Shown one piece after another: positions 59,142 through 64,000 of a stretch of DNA of 64,000 nucleotides. Numbering within the stretch: position 1 is the stretch's first letter; the number at the start of each line of letters is the position of its first letter. The translations under genes were made by a program, and so were the position numbers. The stretch spans positions 496,001 through 560,000 of the forward strand of contig NC_013740.1 in assembly GCF_000025305.1 (NCBI RefSeq). The letters are read 5' to 3'. This DNA comes from Acidaminococcus fermentans DSM 20731. Lineage in GTDB: Bacteria > Bacillota > Negativicutes > Acidaminococcales > Acidaminococcaceae. The notes under the pieces are model-generated. The model was not told where the DNA came from. It saw only the letters and a program-made list of their open reading frames with translations, and searched no databases.

Positions 59142-59954
59142 ATGGGAACAGGAGAAAGCATCCAGCAGATCCGGGAAAAACTGAAGGGGAGGCCGGAACC
59201 TGCCGAACTGGAACGGTGGCGGCAGGATTCCCGGGCCGGAGTCCGGAAGCTGCTGGAAACCTATGACCGGAAACAGAAGGCCCAGGCAGAGGAACGGGAA
59301 CGGCTGGAAAGATTCCAGGATCTGGAACGGGCCTTCTGGGCAAGGGGCATGGACCAGGTGGCCGGCTGCGATGAAGCGGGCCGGGGACCTCTGGCCGGTC
59401 CGCTGGTAACGGCTGCTGTGATCCTGCCCCATTCCATCTGGCTGCCGGGCCTCAACGATTCCAAGAAAGTCACGGCGGCCCGGCGGGAAATCCTGTACGG
59501 GGAAATCCTGGAACAGGCGGTGAGTGTGACCGTGAGCATCCTGGGGCCCCGGGAAATCGACCGGCTGAACATCTACCAGGCGGCCAAAACCGCCATGACC
59601 CTGTGCCTGACCCATCTGAAGGTCCGGCCCCAGGCAGCCGTCACCGATGCCATGCCCCTGGAGATCCCGGGCATGGAGGTGGAAGATCTGGTCCACGGAG
59701 ACAGCAGAAGTGCGGCTGTGGCAGCGGCTTCCATCATTGCCAAGGTGACCCGGGATCATCTCATGGAGGACATGGACCGGCAGTATCCCCAGTATGGTTT
59801 TGCCAAACACAAGGGATACGGCACCGCCCGGCACATCCAGGCCATCCTGGACTGCGGGCCCACGCCCTGGCACCGGAGAAGTTTCGAACCGCTGAAATCC
59901 ATGGACCTGGAAGAAGAAAGCGTCAGCGAAAATCAGCTGCTGCAGCTGAAGTAA
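59142..59954 (+). CDS. rnhB: Ribonuclease HII
   Basis: RNase HII, 270 residues, removes ribonucleotides from DNA. The catalytic DEAGRGPLAGP begins at D77, and the segment VHGDSRSAAVAAASIIAKV is conserved. An N-terminal extension of about 70 residues precedes the catalytic domain, as in Bacillus RnhB. It follows rbgA as usual. Confidence 0.95.
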   Translation: MGTGESIQQIREKLKGRPEPAELERWRQDSRAGVRKLLETYDRKQKAQAEERERLERFQDLERAFWARGMDQVAGCDEAGRGPLAGPLVTAAVILPHSIWLPGLNDSKKVTAARREILYGEILEQAVSVTVSILGPREIDRLNIYQAAKTAMTLCLTHLKVRPQAAVTDAMPLEIPGMEVEDLVHGDSRSAAVAAASIIAKVTRDHLMEDMDRQYPQYGFAKHKGYGTARHIQAILDCGPTPWHRRSFEPLKSMDLEEESVSENQLLQLK

Positions 59955-59959
59955 AGGGA

Positions 59960-59975
59960 TGTTGCCTTTGCAACA
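59960..59975 (+). repeat. Short hairpin and repeat fragment after rnhB
   Basis: TGTTGC/GCAACA without T-tract. It is followed by GTCAACG (family A) and a GCCAG/CTGGC hairpin; both recur at 60410-60463. Confidence 0.35.
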
Positions 59976-60041
59976 GCCTGTCAACGGCTGAAGGATGCCA
60001 GCAGAACTGGCTTTGCATCATGCTGAAAGGAGGAAACAGTC

Positions 60042-60398
60042 ATGGTCCACCAGCGCCGCCGATTTGGCAACTGGGGAGAGGATGCGGCTGTCCGCTATCT
60101 GGAAACCCGGGGGTATGAAATCCTGGATCGGAACTACCGGAGCAGCTGGGGAGAAATCGACATCATTGCCCGGTACCGGGGCGTCCTGGCTTTTGTGGAA
60201 GTGAAGACCCGGCACAGTCTGAAATTCGGCCGTCCCGCTGCGGCCGTGACCCGGGAAAAACAGATCCGTCTCCGGAAAACCGCCTGGTGCTATCTCAGGG
60301 AAAACCAGGTGTTCCGGTACCGGAGCCGGTTCGATATCATCGAAATCCTGGATCTGTATGGGAAAATTTCTCTGAATCATTTGAAGAATTGTTTTTAA
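60042..60398 (+). CDS. yraN: UPF0102 endonuclease-like protein YraN
   Basis: YraN, 118 residues, of the UPF0102 family with a Holliday-junction-resolvase-like fold. The motifs GEDAAVRYLETRGYEIL, WGEIDIIA and FVEVKTR match its putative nuclease site (E, D and E-V-K). Function is unproven. It sits between rnhB and comM, the order seen in many Firmicutes. The start follows AAAGGAGG. Confidence 0.93.
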   Translation: MVHQRRRFGNWGEDAAVRYLETRGYEILDRNYRSSWGEIDIIARYRGVLAFVEVKTRHSLKFGRPAAAVTREKQIRLRKTAWCYLRENQVFRYRSRFDIIEILDLYGKISLNHLKNCF

Positions 60399-60409
60399 AA
60401 GTAAATTCT

Positions 60410-60437
60410 GTCGGTGGTCAGCTGTCAACGGTCAACT
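60410..60437 (+). repeat. Heptad repeat, family A (four units)
   Basis: GTCGGTG, GTCAGCT, GTCAACG, GTCAACT in register, then a composite hairpin and the family B array. Confidence 0.65.
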
Positions 60438-60440
60438 GCC

Positions 60441-60489
60441 GAAGGAAGCCAGCGAAGCTGGCTTTGCAAAGACAGCAGCCTTCTTTTTT
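60441..60489 (+). terminator. Composite terminator before comM
   Basis: Outer GAAGG/CCTTC encloses AGCCAGC/GCTGGCT and is followed by six T. Confidence 0.6.
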
Positions 60490-60493
60490 ACCT

Positions 60494-60563
60494 ACGATGA
60501 ACGACAAACGATGAACGACTCACGACAAACGATGAACGACTCACGATGAACGATACACGACAA
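60494..60563 (+). repeat. Heptad repeat, family B (ten units)
   Basis: Ten exact-register 7-bp units, each starting ACGA. The last three bases are TGA (four times), CAA (three), CTC (twice) and TAC (once). The array ends at the AGGAG (60564-60568) of comM. Confidence 0.9.
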
Positions 60564-60576
60564 AGGAGCTGATTCC

Positions 60577-62100
60577 ATGTATGCACGGACCTGGGGGGAG
60601 ACCACCCGAGGCATCAACGGAGAAATGGTTACGGTGGAGGTGGATGTGACCAACGGCATGCCGGCTTTTGAAATGGTGGGCCTTCCGGATACGGCGGTGA
60701 AAGAAGCCCGGGAGCGGGTGAAGGCGGCAGTGAAGAACTCCGGCTTCCGGTTTCCCGATACCCACATTACCGTCAACCTGGCCCCGGCAGACCTGAAAAA
60801 AGACGGAGCCGGACTGGATTTGCCCATCGCCCTGGGGGTGCTGGCGGCTAAAAAATACGTGAAACTGCCGGAACCCATGCCGGTATTTGCAGGAGAACTG
60901 GCCCTGGACGGGTCCCTGCGGCCGGTGAACGGGATCCTGCCCATGATCCTCCGGGCCCGGGCGGAAGGCCTGCCTTCCATGTTCATCCCTACCGGCAATG
61001 CCACGGAAGGAGAACTGGTGGACGGGATTGCCGTGTATACCGCGGACAATCTGGGGCAGATTGTGGATCATTTCCAGGGGAAACAGGTTCTGGAACCCCT
61101 GGCCAAGAAAGTGCTGGAACTGGAAAAGCCCTTGGAGGATACGGTGGATTTTGCCGATGTCCAGGGGCAGAAGGTGGCCAAACGGGCTCTGGAAATCGCC
61201 GCTGCCGGAGGACACAATGTGCTGATGGTGGGAGCTCCCGGTGCGGGCAAGACCATGCTGGCCCGCCGTCTGCCTTCCATCCTGCCTCCCATGACGGAAG
61301 AAGAGGCTCTGGAAGTGACCAAAATCTACAGCATCTCCGGGCTGCTGAAGGGTCGCCACGGCATCATGGTGGAACGGCCCTTCCGGAGTCCCCATCATAC
61401 CGTGTCCCAGTCGGCCCTGATCGGCGGGGGCAGCATCCCCCATCCGGGAGAGGTGACCCTCAGCCACCATGGGGTCCTGTTCCTGGATGAACTGCCGGAA
61501 TTTTCCCGGAGTGCTCTGGAAGTGCTCCGGCAGCCTCTGGAAGACGGGATGGTCACCATCAGCCGGGTCCAGGCGTCCCTGACCTATCCTGCCCGGTTCA
61601 TCCTGGTGGCGGCCCAGAACCCCTGTCCCTGCGGTTTCTGGGGAGAAGAGGACAATCTCCATCAGTGCACCTGCCGGCCCGGGGATATTGCCCGGTATCA
61701 GAAAAAAATCTCCGGTCCACTGTTGGACCGGATCGATATCCAGATCCATGTGCCCCGGCTCCAGTACCAGGAGATGAAAAGCCGGAAAAAAGAAGAAAGT
61801 TCAGCGGTGATCCGGCAGCGGGTGGTGGCGGCCCGGCAGATCCAGCGGGAACGGCTGAAAGGGACCCATCTTTTCTGCAACGCCAGCATGGGACGGAGGG
61901 AAGTGAAAGCCTTTTGTCCCCTGACTCCGCAGGCGGAAGCCCTGCTGGAAAAATATTTCGTCAGCCTGGGGCTCAGCGCCCGGAGCCATGACCGGATCAT
62001 CAAAGTGGCCCGGACCATCGCGGATCTGGCCGGCAGCCGGGAAATCACACCCCTCCATCTGGGGGAAGCCATCCAGCTGCGGACCAGTATCCAGGGATAG
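60577..62100 (+). CDS. comM: ComM/YifB family Mg-chelatase-like ATPase
   Basis: A 507-residue ComM-type AAA+ protein. Homologues act in branch migration of transforming DNA during natural transformation. An N-terminal Lon-like domain is followed by Walker A (VGAPGAGKTMLARRL), Walker B (FLDELPEFSR) and the C-terminal domain ending near LHLGEAIQLRTS. The start ATG 60577 lies after AGGAGCTG. The heptad array borders its ribosome-binding site, so it may tune expression. The next gene encodes a type IV pilus-type protein. Confidence 0.94.
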   Translation: MYARTWGETTRGINGEMVTVEVDVTNGMPAFEMVGLPDTAVKEARERVKAAVKNSGFRFPDTHITVNLAPADLKKDGAGLDLPIALGVLAAKKYVKLPEPMPVFAGELALDGSLRPVNGILPMILRARAEGLPSMFIPTGNATEGELVDGIAVYTADNLGQIVDHFQGKQVLEPLAKKVLELEKPLEDTVDFADVQGQKVAKRALEIAAAGGHNVLMVGAPGAGKTMLARRLPSILPPMTEEEALEVTKIYSISGLLKGRHGIMVERPFRSPHHTVSQSALIGGGSIPHPGEVTLSHHGVLFLDELPEFSRSALEVLRQPLEDGMVTISRVQASLTYPARFILVAAQNPCPCGFWGEEDNLHQCTCRPGDIARYQKKISGPLLDRIDIQIHVPRLQYQEMKSRKKEESSAVIRQRVVAARQIQRERLKGTHLFCNASMGRREVKAFCPLTPQAEALLEKYFVSLGLSARSHDRIIKVARTIADLAGSREITPLHLGEAIQLRTSIQG

Positions 62101-62116: not shown

Positions 62117-64000
62117 ATGACAGAATATATGATATCATACCTCCCCGGAATGTTCTGGGGCATCGTGGGCTGCTGCCTGGGCAGCTTCCTGGATTTGTGG
62201 GCCCAGCGGATCCGGCGGGAGGAATCCATTTTTCGTCCCCGTTCCCACTGTGACAGCTGCGGTGCGGTGCTGGGTCCTCTGGAACTGATCCCCCTGGTGA
62301 GCTGGCTGGCCCAGAAGGGACGCTGCCGTCACTGCGGAGCGGAACTGTCCGGTTCCCTGTTCTGGCGGGAGGCTGCCTGCGGGGCCCTTTTTGTCCTGGT
62401 GGCCCGGATGCCCGGCTCTCCGGCGGTACTGGCCGTACGGCTGCTCTGCCTGTCCCTGATGCTGGTGGTTTCCTGGCTGGACATGGACGAACTCCAGCTG
62501 TATGAAGATTTTTTCCCTCCTCTGGGACTGCTGTTCCTGATCCTCCATGGACTGACGGATGGGGATTTCCTGGGGCCGGTGGCAGGTGCGGCCATCCTGT
62601 GGGCGCTGCTGGCCCTGATCCACTGGCAGGTCCCTGAGGGCATGGGAGCGGGAGATCCCAAACTGGCTGCGGTGATGGGCCTGTGGCTGGGACCGGTCCT
62701 GGGACTCCGGAGCTTTTTCCTGGCCATGGGCATGGCCTTCCTGTCCGTGGCTTTCCTGGGGTTCAAGACCCACAGCCGGTGGCAGGAACACATGGCCATG
62801 CAGGTCCCCCTGGCTCCTTTTTTCTTTGGAGCGGGACTGTTGCTGCGGAGCCGGGCTCTCCTGGGCCCCGTGGATACAGGCGGGATGCCGGAACTGTTCT
62901 GCTTCCTGGGAATCCTGGAACTGGACCGGACAAAGGGCCGGTACTGGCTGTCCAGGGCCGGGGAGTGGATCAGACGGCATCTGGCTCCCTGGCCCGGGCA
63001 TCTGCTGGCCGTCCAGGCCGGCGCCAGGACGGTGACCCTGGTCCAGGTACAAAGGAAGAAAGGCGGCTGGGAAGTGGAGCGGTTCCTGGAACTGGCCTGG
63101 CCGGAACGGATCCGCCGGGCTTTTTCCCGGGACCAGGGAGAAGAAGTGGCCCTGTGGCTCCAGGAGGTCTGTGCCAAACGGGGGCTGACCGCTTCCTCCG
63201 TGCTGTGGACCCTGAGCCCTGACCTGATGGAATTCCGGAACCTGCTCCTGCCCGGTTTGTCCCGGAAAGAACAGGCGGAGGCGGCATCCTGGGAAATCCT
63301 CCAGCAAATCGAATATCCTCCCGGGACCTTTGCCCTGGGGGTAGAAGCCGGACCGGAAACGGGAGAAGATATCCTGGCTGCCGCCGTCCCCCTGGCTCTT
63401 CTGGAAACTGGAGAAACCATTGCCCGGCAAATGGACTGGGAACTGCTCCGCCAGGAAGCAGCGCCGGCAGCCTGGGGACGCTGGATGGAGCAGGAACCTG
63501 CTGCTTTTCTCCTGGTCCGGGACCTGGACCGGATCCAGGGCGCCTGGTATGGATACGGCCGGCTGCTGGCCCTGCGGAATCTTCCCCTGGCCGATGGGGA
63601 AGAGGCAATGCCGGAAGAAACAGCCGGGCTCCTGTGGGACAAACTGCCGGCCGGAATCCGGGAACGGTTCCAGACAGGGCCCACCGGCTTGTATCTGGCA
63701 GGGGGCACGGAAGAGGAACAGCAGGCATGGAAGGAATTCTTCCAGCAGCAGTGGGACTGTCCGGTCCGGCTCCTGGAGGGAAAGGCCCAGTTCCAATGGG
63801 CGCCTTATTACACGGAAAAGCAGCCTTCCGGGCTGACCTCCGGCCTTTGCGGGGCCTTGGGAGCCGTACTGTCCGAAGGCAGGCCCAGTGCATTCTGCTT
63901 TGCTTCCGGCGGGGAAAGGGGACGGTGGCTGTCCGGCATCTCCTGGCTGGATCTGGGGAAGAAAATGGCGGCAGGTACGCTGGCACTCCTTTTGTGGGGC
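62117..64000 (+). CDS. Prepilin peptidase fused to a PilM/GspL-like domain (3' end outside window)
   Basis: One frame stays open for 628 codons from ATG 62117 to the window end. Residues 1-~250 are a prepilin peptidase (A24): two CxxC pairs (C45/C48, C70/C73), the catalytic aspartates D122 in SWLDMDE and D180 in GAGDPKL, and several membrane helices. From about residue 296 an actin-like PilM/GspL-type domain follows (AGARTVTLVQV; YLAGG at 526-530). Its nucleotide motifs look degenerate: Q300 replaces D of DIG, and the second is VRDLD (469-471). The last 15 residues start a membrane helix, as in GspL or PilN. ATG 62111 is a second possible start. Fusion by sequencing error cannot be excluded. 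Confidence 0.82.
   Translation, partial: MTEYMISYLPGMFWGIVGCCLGSFLDLWAQRIRREESIFRPRSHCDSCGAVLGPLELIPLVSWLAQKGRCRHCGAELSGSLFWREAACGALFVLVARMPGSPAVLAVRLLCLSLMLVVSWLDMDELQLYEDFFPPLGLLFLILHGLTDGDFLGPVAGAAILWALLALIHWQVPEGMGAGDPKLAAVMGLWLGPVLGLRSFFLAMGMAFLSVAFLGFKTHSRWQEHMAMQVPLAPFFFGAGLLLRSRALLGPVDTGGMPELFCFLGILELDRTKGRYWLSRAGEWIRRHLAPWPGHLLAVQAGARTVTLVQVQRKKGGWEVERFLELAWPERIRRAFSRDQGEEVALWLQEVCAKRGLTASSVLWTLSPDLMEFRNLLLPGLSRKEQAEAASWEILQQIEYPPGTFALGVEAGPETGEDILAAAVPLALLETGETIARQMDWELLRQEAAPAAWGRWMEQEPAAFLLVRDLDRIQGAWYGYGRLLALRNLPLADGEEAMPEETAGLLWDKLPAGIRERFQTGPTGLYLAGGTEEEQQAWKEFFQQQWDCPVRLLEGKAQFQWAPYYTEKQPSGLTSGLCGALGAVLSEGRPSAFCFASGGERGRWLSGISWLDLGKKMAAGTLALLLWG

Follow-up and report, generated by a model that had tools for sequence, protein, structure and literature searches.

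Heterocystous cyanobacteria carry tandem heptanucleotides (STRR) in their intergenic DNA. Heptamers reportedly dominate long simple sequence repeats, an excess for which Mrazek et al. are said to have proposed, in 2007, a 7-nt polymerase slippage step as the cause. The same 2007 study is cited for the heptamer excess and the 7-nt polymerase step in the accessible portions of two papers on particular lineages (PMC4679880, PMC4692102). The first of these describes TAACTGA direct repeats of marine Beggiatoaceae, which are intergenic, mostly in one orientation and positioned just 5' of start codons (MacGregor 2015, PMC4679880), and the second, in the part considered here, the (GGGANTN)n heptamers of Xanthomonas and the GGGGA(C/T)T heptamers of Nostoc, which are heterogeneous, G-rich and quadruplex-forming (PMC4692102). 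Tandem repeats of constant size and variable sequence have also been described from Bacillus, in excerpts of PMC8161180, with units of 52 or 20-21 nt. No description of heptamer arrays in Acidaminococcus or the Negativicutes was found among the listed titles and abstract openings of the open-licence literature, nor did the genome paper of A. fermentans, searched by term, describe such repeats, in agreement with an earlier note on this DNA, which knew of none for the lineage.

The stretch analysed here (the window, 64,000 nt) comprises positions 496001-560000 of the single 2,329,769-bp contig of Acidaminococcus fermentans DSM 20731 (G000), a length equal to the chromosome size given for A. fermentans VR4T in the section of the genome paper at hand (PMC3035267). 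Directly before comM, the earlier note had described ten consecutive ACGANNN units with four types of tail, followed by AGGAG and the comM ATG, and the sequence reads exactly so (Table 1). The units are, in order, ACGATGA, ACGACAA, ACGATGA, ACGACTC, ACGACAA, ACGATGA, ACGACTC, ACGATGA, ACGATAC and ACGACAA, with the tails TGA four times, CAA three times, CTC twice and TAC once, and the start of AGGAG precedes the ATG (60577) by 13 bases. That such a register exceeds chance was equally well founded: with at most one mismatch, ACGANNNACGANNNACGA has 9 matches in the window (8 exact), every one within the array, whereas 100 shuffles of the window that preserved dinucleotides gave 0.12 on average (sd 0.38) and never more than 2. 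Tandem Repeats Finder also reported periods of 14, 21 and 35 bases inside the array, a sign that blocks of whole units recur.

Table 1. Features of the comM leader and its surroundings, in window coordinates
Feature	Position	Strand	Basis
yraN (UPF0102), co-directional, upstream of comM	60042..60398	+	ORF, Pfam
Whole yraN-comM intergenic leader, 178 nt	60399..60576	+	Gap comparison; G008 counterpart 66 nt, without either array
Second, shorter array, GTCNNNN dialect: GTCGGTG GTCAGCT GTCAACG GTCAACT, then GCCGAAGG	60410..60437	+	Sequence
Hairpin AAGCCAGC-GAA-GCTGGCTT between GTC and ACGA arrays; core GCCAGCGAAGCTGGC at 60448-60462	60446..60464	+	Sequence, folding
ACGANNN heptamer array, ten exact in-register units	60494..60563	+	Sequence, Tandem Repeats Finder, shuffles
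AGGAG, presumed Shine-Dalgarno sequence of comM, abutting the 3' end of the array	60564..60568	+	Sequence
comM/yifB, YifB family Mg chelatase-like AAA ATPase, 507 aa	60577..62100	+	ORF, NCBIfam, Pfam

The comM product belongs to the YifB/ComM family (NCBIfam TIGR00368, 606.6 bits against a cut-off of 362.4; Pfam domains Mg_chelatase, ChlI and Mg_chelatase_C) and its gene is preceded by those for a ribosome-binding-type GTPase, RNase HII (rnhB) and YraN/UPF0102. The GTC array and the hairpin in the yraN-comM gap had been absent from the earlier note. On the other side of comM, a prepilin peptidase gene (A24_N_bact, Peptidase_A24) occupies 62117-64000 and runs past the window end; its long C-terminal part is continuous, has no Pfam match at 1e-5 and may represent a fusion with a second protein.

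A search of the whole genome for further ACGANNN arrays, as the earlier note had suggested, returned 17 sites with at least three in-register cores (44 pattern matches) and 12 with at least four (27 matches), the reversed-pattern control giving 0 at either threshold. With its ten exact cores the comM array is the longest of the 17, the runner-up having seven. At 16 of the 17 sites the array, read on the ACGA strand, faces the start of the next gene (binomial p = 0.0003 against one half), and the single remaining site, 680732, faces a gene 3' end. Eleven arrays stop near a Shine-Dalgarno (SD) sequence: the start codon follows the last core within about 25 nt in ten cases and at 41 nt in the eleventh, with an SD-like sequence in between at all 11. 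Five others (919362, 1014209, 1388623, 1397864 and 1424791) end roughly 70-120 nt from the start, 5' of an apparent promoter, and thus probably lie outside the transcript; promoters, like the SD sites of congeners, were judged by eye. From the SD-adjacent and promoter-adjacent ends together it appears that arrays of this genome tend to stop where the functional sequence of the next gene begins, be it promoter or SD. The genes that follow are unrelated in function, their products including exodeoxyribonuclease III, a ComF-like protein, a phosphoglycolate-phosphatase-like protein, amidohydrolases and a sulfide/dihydroorotate-dehydrogenase-like FAD protein, and 2 of 10 such genes lack an NCBIfam match. 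AGAG or AGTG heptamers occur within 150 nt 5' of 4 of the 17 ACGA arrays and of 9 of 376 upstream regions used as controls, numbers too small for a conclusion, and AGAGTGN heptamer arrays are found at 1460766-1460826 and 1514677-1514721 of the contig.

To what extent intergenic DNA favours a 7-base period was assessed in 464 kb of the same genome, with 386 called genes and 44,890 nt of intergenic DNA; genes were called with a codon-usage gene finder written for this analysis, whose starts may err by some bases. Tracts were scored at thresholds of 15, 17 or 19 matches in 21 at a given lag. Lag 7 yielded 60, 36 and 9 intergenic tracts at the three thresholds, with echoes at lags 14 (48), 21 (10) and 28 (4) at threshold 15, whereas the remaining lags from 4 to 30 gave 0-8, 0-2 and 0. 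In three Markov resamples, lag 7 averaged 2.3 tracts at threshold 15 and 0 at threshold 17. Coding DNA of the sample favoured multiples of 3 instead. Seven and its multiples are the sole clearly enriched intergenic repeat periods in the 464-kb sample. Tracts are present in 48 of 197 gaps of 60-1500 nt, 43 of the 48 holding a classified tract, and the 57 merged lag-7 tracts divide by dialect into 38 GTCNNNN, 8 ACGANNN, 5 AGAGNNN and 6 other, the last excluded from the orientation table.

The GTC dialect is associated with hairpins. Outward terminator-like hairpins flank both sides of 12 of the 38 GTC tracts, compared with 3 of 238 control points (Fisher p = 3e-9); counted per side, they occur to the left of 21 and to the right of 19 tracts, and at 26 and 31 of the 238 controls, respectively. 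Inward-facing hairpins were recorded at 16 of 38 tracts on the right and 3 of 38 on the left, figures that stand without a control. Gaps between convergent genes hold 10 of the 38 tracts (19 of 197 gaps overall) and gaps between divergent genes one (28 of 197). In the same test the GTC array of the comM leader had a terminator-like hairpin on neither side. Where classified arrays adjoin in one gap of the samples, 11 of 12 pairs are convergent, namely ten GTC pairs and the GTC-ACGA pair of the comM leader, in a count that omits five multi-tract gaps holding an unclassified tract. A GTC array lies within 350 nt 5' of the ACGA array at 2 of 17 sites, against 17 of 375 control gene upstreams; ACGA arrays are therefore not regular ends of GTC elements, and the regular inverted partner that a MITE-like element would have was not found for them. 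The idea that ACGA arrays are the inverted partner of GTC arrays, which fits the comM leader, was rejected because the partner is present at these two sites only. Near-identical intergenic elements were seen at 696856, 738453, 749917, 1386504, 1408573 and other positions of the contig. Their layout is a hairpin ending in CACCCC, four or five GTCWCTA heptamers, GCCGATGGAAGCCAGC and a second hairpin, mostly with a T-run (CACCCC-GTCACTA...-GCCGATGG), so that each has the appearance of a bidirectional terminator in which heptamers form the spacer. This family, measuring 28 or 35 nt from anchor to anchor, has 8 copies in the G000 sample and none in the samples of four other species; the length count is limited by our own search pattern and is no proof of unit steps.

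Comparison of comM in all nine Acidaminococcus species (one genome per species) revealed that the array is neither absent nor constant across relatives, either of which would have spoken against the earlier note. The leader holds 10 ACGA units in G000, 6 in G004 (one with a degenerate core) and 8 in G003 (two with degenerate cores), and no array in the other six species (G001, G002, G005, G006, G007 and G008). Nucleotide identity of comM to that of G000 is 87.8% in G004 and 83.8% in G008, and the terminal units TAC and CAA before AGGAG are common to the G000 and G004 leaders. In G003, comM matches as two overlapping pieces (contig C4, 2307116-2308637), suggestive of a frameshifted gene or a sequencing error. 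Three further leaders were compared in five species (G000, G001, G003, G004 and G008). Before the phosphatase gene at 1669878, only G000 and G004 have arrays. At 1469006 the FAD/NAD-binding gene is preceded by an array in G000, by a degenerate remnant in G004, by other heptamers and a hairpin in G003, and by no array in G008 or G001. The comF leader (1624763) has ACGA units only in G000, with ACTAACC heptamers abutting the SD in G008; the G003 comF match is divided between two distant places. At 577185-577377, between near-identical flanks, G000 has 193 nt and G008 179 nt, a difference of 14 bases or two units, and at 537956 the heptamers of the gap differ between G000, G003 and G008. Unit-number variation between species is thus supported.

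Among orthologous gaps, counted only where syntenic within the samples, 28 shared with G003 comprised one with a tract in both genomes, three with a tract in G003 alone and 24 with neither; the 53 shared with G008 comprised three with both, six with G000 alone, three with G008 alone and 41 with neither; and the one shared with G004 had no tract; the comM leaders of G003 and G004 were compared apart from these counts. Two or three species have an array before one and the same gene at six sites: comM, 664982, 898621, 938758 and 1879081, these five matched by eye, and 1669878. The ACGA core is constant and the tails vary, an observation biased by the fact that arrays were found by their core; the tails TGA, CCA, CTC, CAA and CGA recur in congeners. 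Lag-7 tracts are in excess in the samples of G003 (27), G004 (10) and G008 (13), and no excess was seen in that of G001 (2 tracts), a genome that matches A. provencensis Marseille-P4266 without a difference over 3 kb.

In a class-wide search, the pattern of four ACGA units was present in 9 of 300 genomes. A lag-7 peak also appeared in pieces of three more distant members of the class, G212, G217 and G250, the last with a smaller peak at 9, and weakly in G128; the first three were partly picked where arrays were known, so that no abundance can be read from them. ACGA arrays face gene 3' ends in 8 of 10 cases in the G212 sample, 8 of 10 in that of G250 and 3 of 9 in that of G217, the other six of G217 facing a gene start, and those of G212 and G250 are mostly in other unit dialects. 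The reversed control (AGCANNN, four units) matched 30 times in G128, 24 in G185, 10 in G212, 7 in G250 and also in a few others, and hence is no clean null across the class; its matches may be heptamer arrays of another dialect. Across genomes of 84,980 species, at least 120 matching stretches were found in many phyla, counted irrespective of their position relative to genes.

The earlier note had suggested that variation in copy number could change comM expression by altering leader spacing or structure. No promoter-like site was detected in 59900-60700, and no known structured RNA leader was recognised over the same interval (0 Rfam matches at E <= 1). Folding of the leader (60399-60620) did not differ from shuffles (z-score 0.0). 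Over the 11 SD-adjacent leaders, ViennaRNA gave no significant difference in the minimum free energy of the array from shuffles (p = 0.17) or in SD opening energy from leaders with the array deleted (p = 0.52) or shuffled (p = 0.58). The prediction for comM itself leans to a more open ribosome-binding site: opening the SD would cost 4.1 kcal/mol with the array and 6.1 kcal/mol with it either deleted or shuffled. The SD is likewise predicted to open more easily than in the deleted or shuffled versions for the other two of the three longest arrays tested (1469006, 56 nt, and 1669878, 49 nt, next to comM, 70 nt), whereas the arrays at 729891 and 898621 go the opposite way; with no overall significance, this weakens the idea of a spacer that keeps the SD open.

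We consider it probable that the comM array belongs, as the longest of ACGA type, to a population of degenerate 7-base-period arrays spread through the intergenic DNA of the whole genome, passive and grown by slippage, with any influence on comM expression incidental. It would be carried passively between yraN and comM in their common message, a co-transcription suggested by the lack of a promoter-like site in the leader, and would have grown as one to a few 7-base units at a time were duplicated in register, with replication slippage or recombination between short repeats, in spacer under little constraint, as the likeliest mechanism. Its right edge would lie at the ribosome-binding site because this is the first sequence of comM protected by selection, and before genes with an apparent promoter of their own in the gap (by eye) arrays would end ahead of that promoter instead. 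In sibling species, arrays would be gained, resized, degraded or swapped for other heptamer dialects. Dispersal over unrelated genes, the null structure tests and the lack of a promoter or Rfam match lead us to infer spacer DNA of a particular mutational kind, not a comM control element. As one instance of a 7-base pattern scattered through this bacterium and some close relatives, the array is probably no special comM switch, and comM-specific regulation was rejected as the main reading because of the like arrays at 16 other sites; the comM-specific role implied by the earlier note is not supported either by the many orthologues without an array, the five arrays well upstream of their genes or the lack of a significant structure effect over 11 leaders, although the comM leader itself leans to a more open ribosome-binding site. 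Some observations do count against the passive reading, namely the six sites at which two or three species share an array, which are at odds with pure turnover; the core kept while tails vary, not obviously expected from plain drift; the account by a 'first constrained element', which suits A. fermentans better than G004, since at 6 of the 9 G004 sites considered the array ends elsewhere than at an SD; and the predicted easing of SD opening by the three longest arrays.

Arrays before an SD might serve as a general post-transcriptional element that binds a common RNA-binding protein (S1, cold-shock or Csr-type) and tunes translation of about a dozen genes, a scheme that we regard as unlikely. 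It would account for the 11 of 17 sites near an SD, with the last core at most 41 nt from the start, and for the gene orientation shared by 16 of 17, but not for the five sites 5' of apparent promoters or the one facing a gene 3' end. Only 7 of 15 congener sites end at an SD (G003 4/5, G004 3/9, G001 0/1; by eye, for 15 of the 19 congener ACGA sites), and in the other families arrays mostly face 3' ends, G217 (3 of 9) excepted. A conserved core with restricted tails could reflect protein binding, for which the proposal made for TAACTGA in the available text on Beggiatoaceae (PMC4679880) is a precedent, and the lean of the three longest arrays to easier SD opening would agree with it, yet the RNA effect over the 11 leaders is not significant, many orthologues do without the array and the downstream genes have no common function. 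A contingency (phase-variable) leader, in which rapid change of unit number within a population would switch comM expression via spacing or structure, is highly improbable: with the array 5' of the SD, changes in unit number leave the SD-start distance and the frame unaltered, 59900-60700 offers no promoter-like site whose spacing could vary, comM is not a surface gene and the units are degenerate. Degenerate units should slip less often than perfect repeats. That unit number differs between species would suit a phase-variable leader, as would the capacity of tandem repeats between promoter and start to set expression, for which Moraxella uspA1/uspA2 are cited in the part of PMC4679880 used here.

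We also think it quite unlikely that the leader is a MITE-like mobile unit, a hairpin core between heptamer arrays inserted between yraN and comM with the ACGA array as one end. The succession of GTC array, hairpin and ACGA array, the short G008 gap that lacks both arrays, the convergence of neighbouring arrays and the recurrence of near-identical GTC elements are all as such a unit would have them, but the scarcity of GTC partners near ACGA arrays is not. The occurrence of different dialects in the same gap of siblings, together with 7 as the sole clearly enriched period, led us to propose that spacers of this lineage are built and rewritten in fixed steps of 7 nt, whether by polymerase slippage or template switching (perhaps at hairpins) or through a protein that reads a 7-nt period; the 7-base step would then be maintained and not the sequence, with the GTC dialect around terminator hairpins and the ACGA dialect before gene starts; we hold this as a tentative and somewhat doubtful possibility.

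Returning to the passive reading, the arrays are best read as extending to Acidaminococcus a kind of intergenic heptamer repeat reported from Beggiatoaceae, Xanthomonas and cyanobacteria. They bear on why bacteria prefer tandem repeats of exactly seven bases, a question that neither PMC4679880 nor PMC4692102 settles in the parts considered. The 2.3-Mb genome of a gut species with one clear period, several dialects and siblings that differ at the same sites is convenient for tests of slippage against function, and it cautions that a single heptamer leader should not be taken for a gene-specific switch. As in STRR/LSSR heptanucleotides, exact 7-nt tandem units occur above chance, are dispersed over many intergenic sites (17 ACGA sites; 57 lag-7 tracts in 464 kb) and differ in number between related genomes (10, 6, 8 and 0 at comM; 14 nt at 577185), and the kinship with heptanucleotide repeats known in cyanobacteria that the earlier note proposed therefore holds, for these and for other bacteria; the lineage and the unit sequences differ from those of cyanobacterial STRR and the repeats of Mrazek et al. 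With the Bacillus repeats they share constant length and variable sequence, but not unit size (PMC8161180, in part). Like the Xanthomonas and Nostoc heptamers, as described in the available text, they are degenerate, conserved at positions 1-4, intergenic and variable in length between sister species, and the frequent convergent pairs and scarcity between divergent genes reported there recur in the layout of the GTC arrays here; unlike them, the ACGA and GTC dialects are not G-tract repeats (PMC4692102). The resemblance to TAACTGA of the Beggiatoaceae, to the extent that the text at hand describes it, lies in 7-base tandem units that are intergenic, oriented before starts, without pattern in downstream function and patchy in phylogeny (PMC4679880), and oriented arrays directly 5' of starts are indeed found in our genome (16 of 17 sites, 11 of them within 41 nt) and more weakly in G004 (3 of 9). 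The Beggiatoaceae, however, favour a single heptamer and mostly show no canonical ribosome-binding site there (PMC4679880, same portion), whereas in A. fermentans several dialects occur side by side, the ACGANNN unit is degenerate and 11 of the 17 ACGA arrays have an SD after them.
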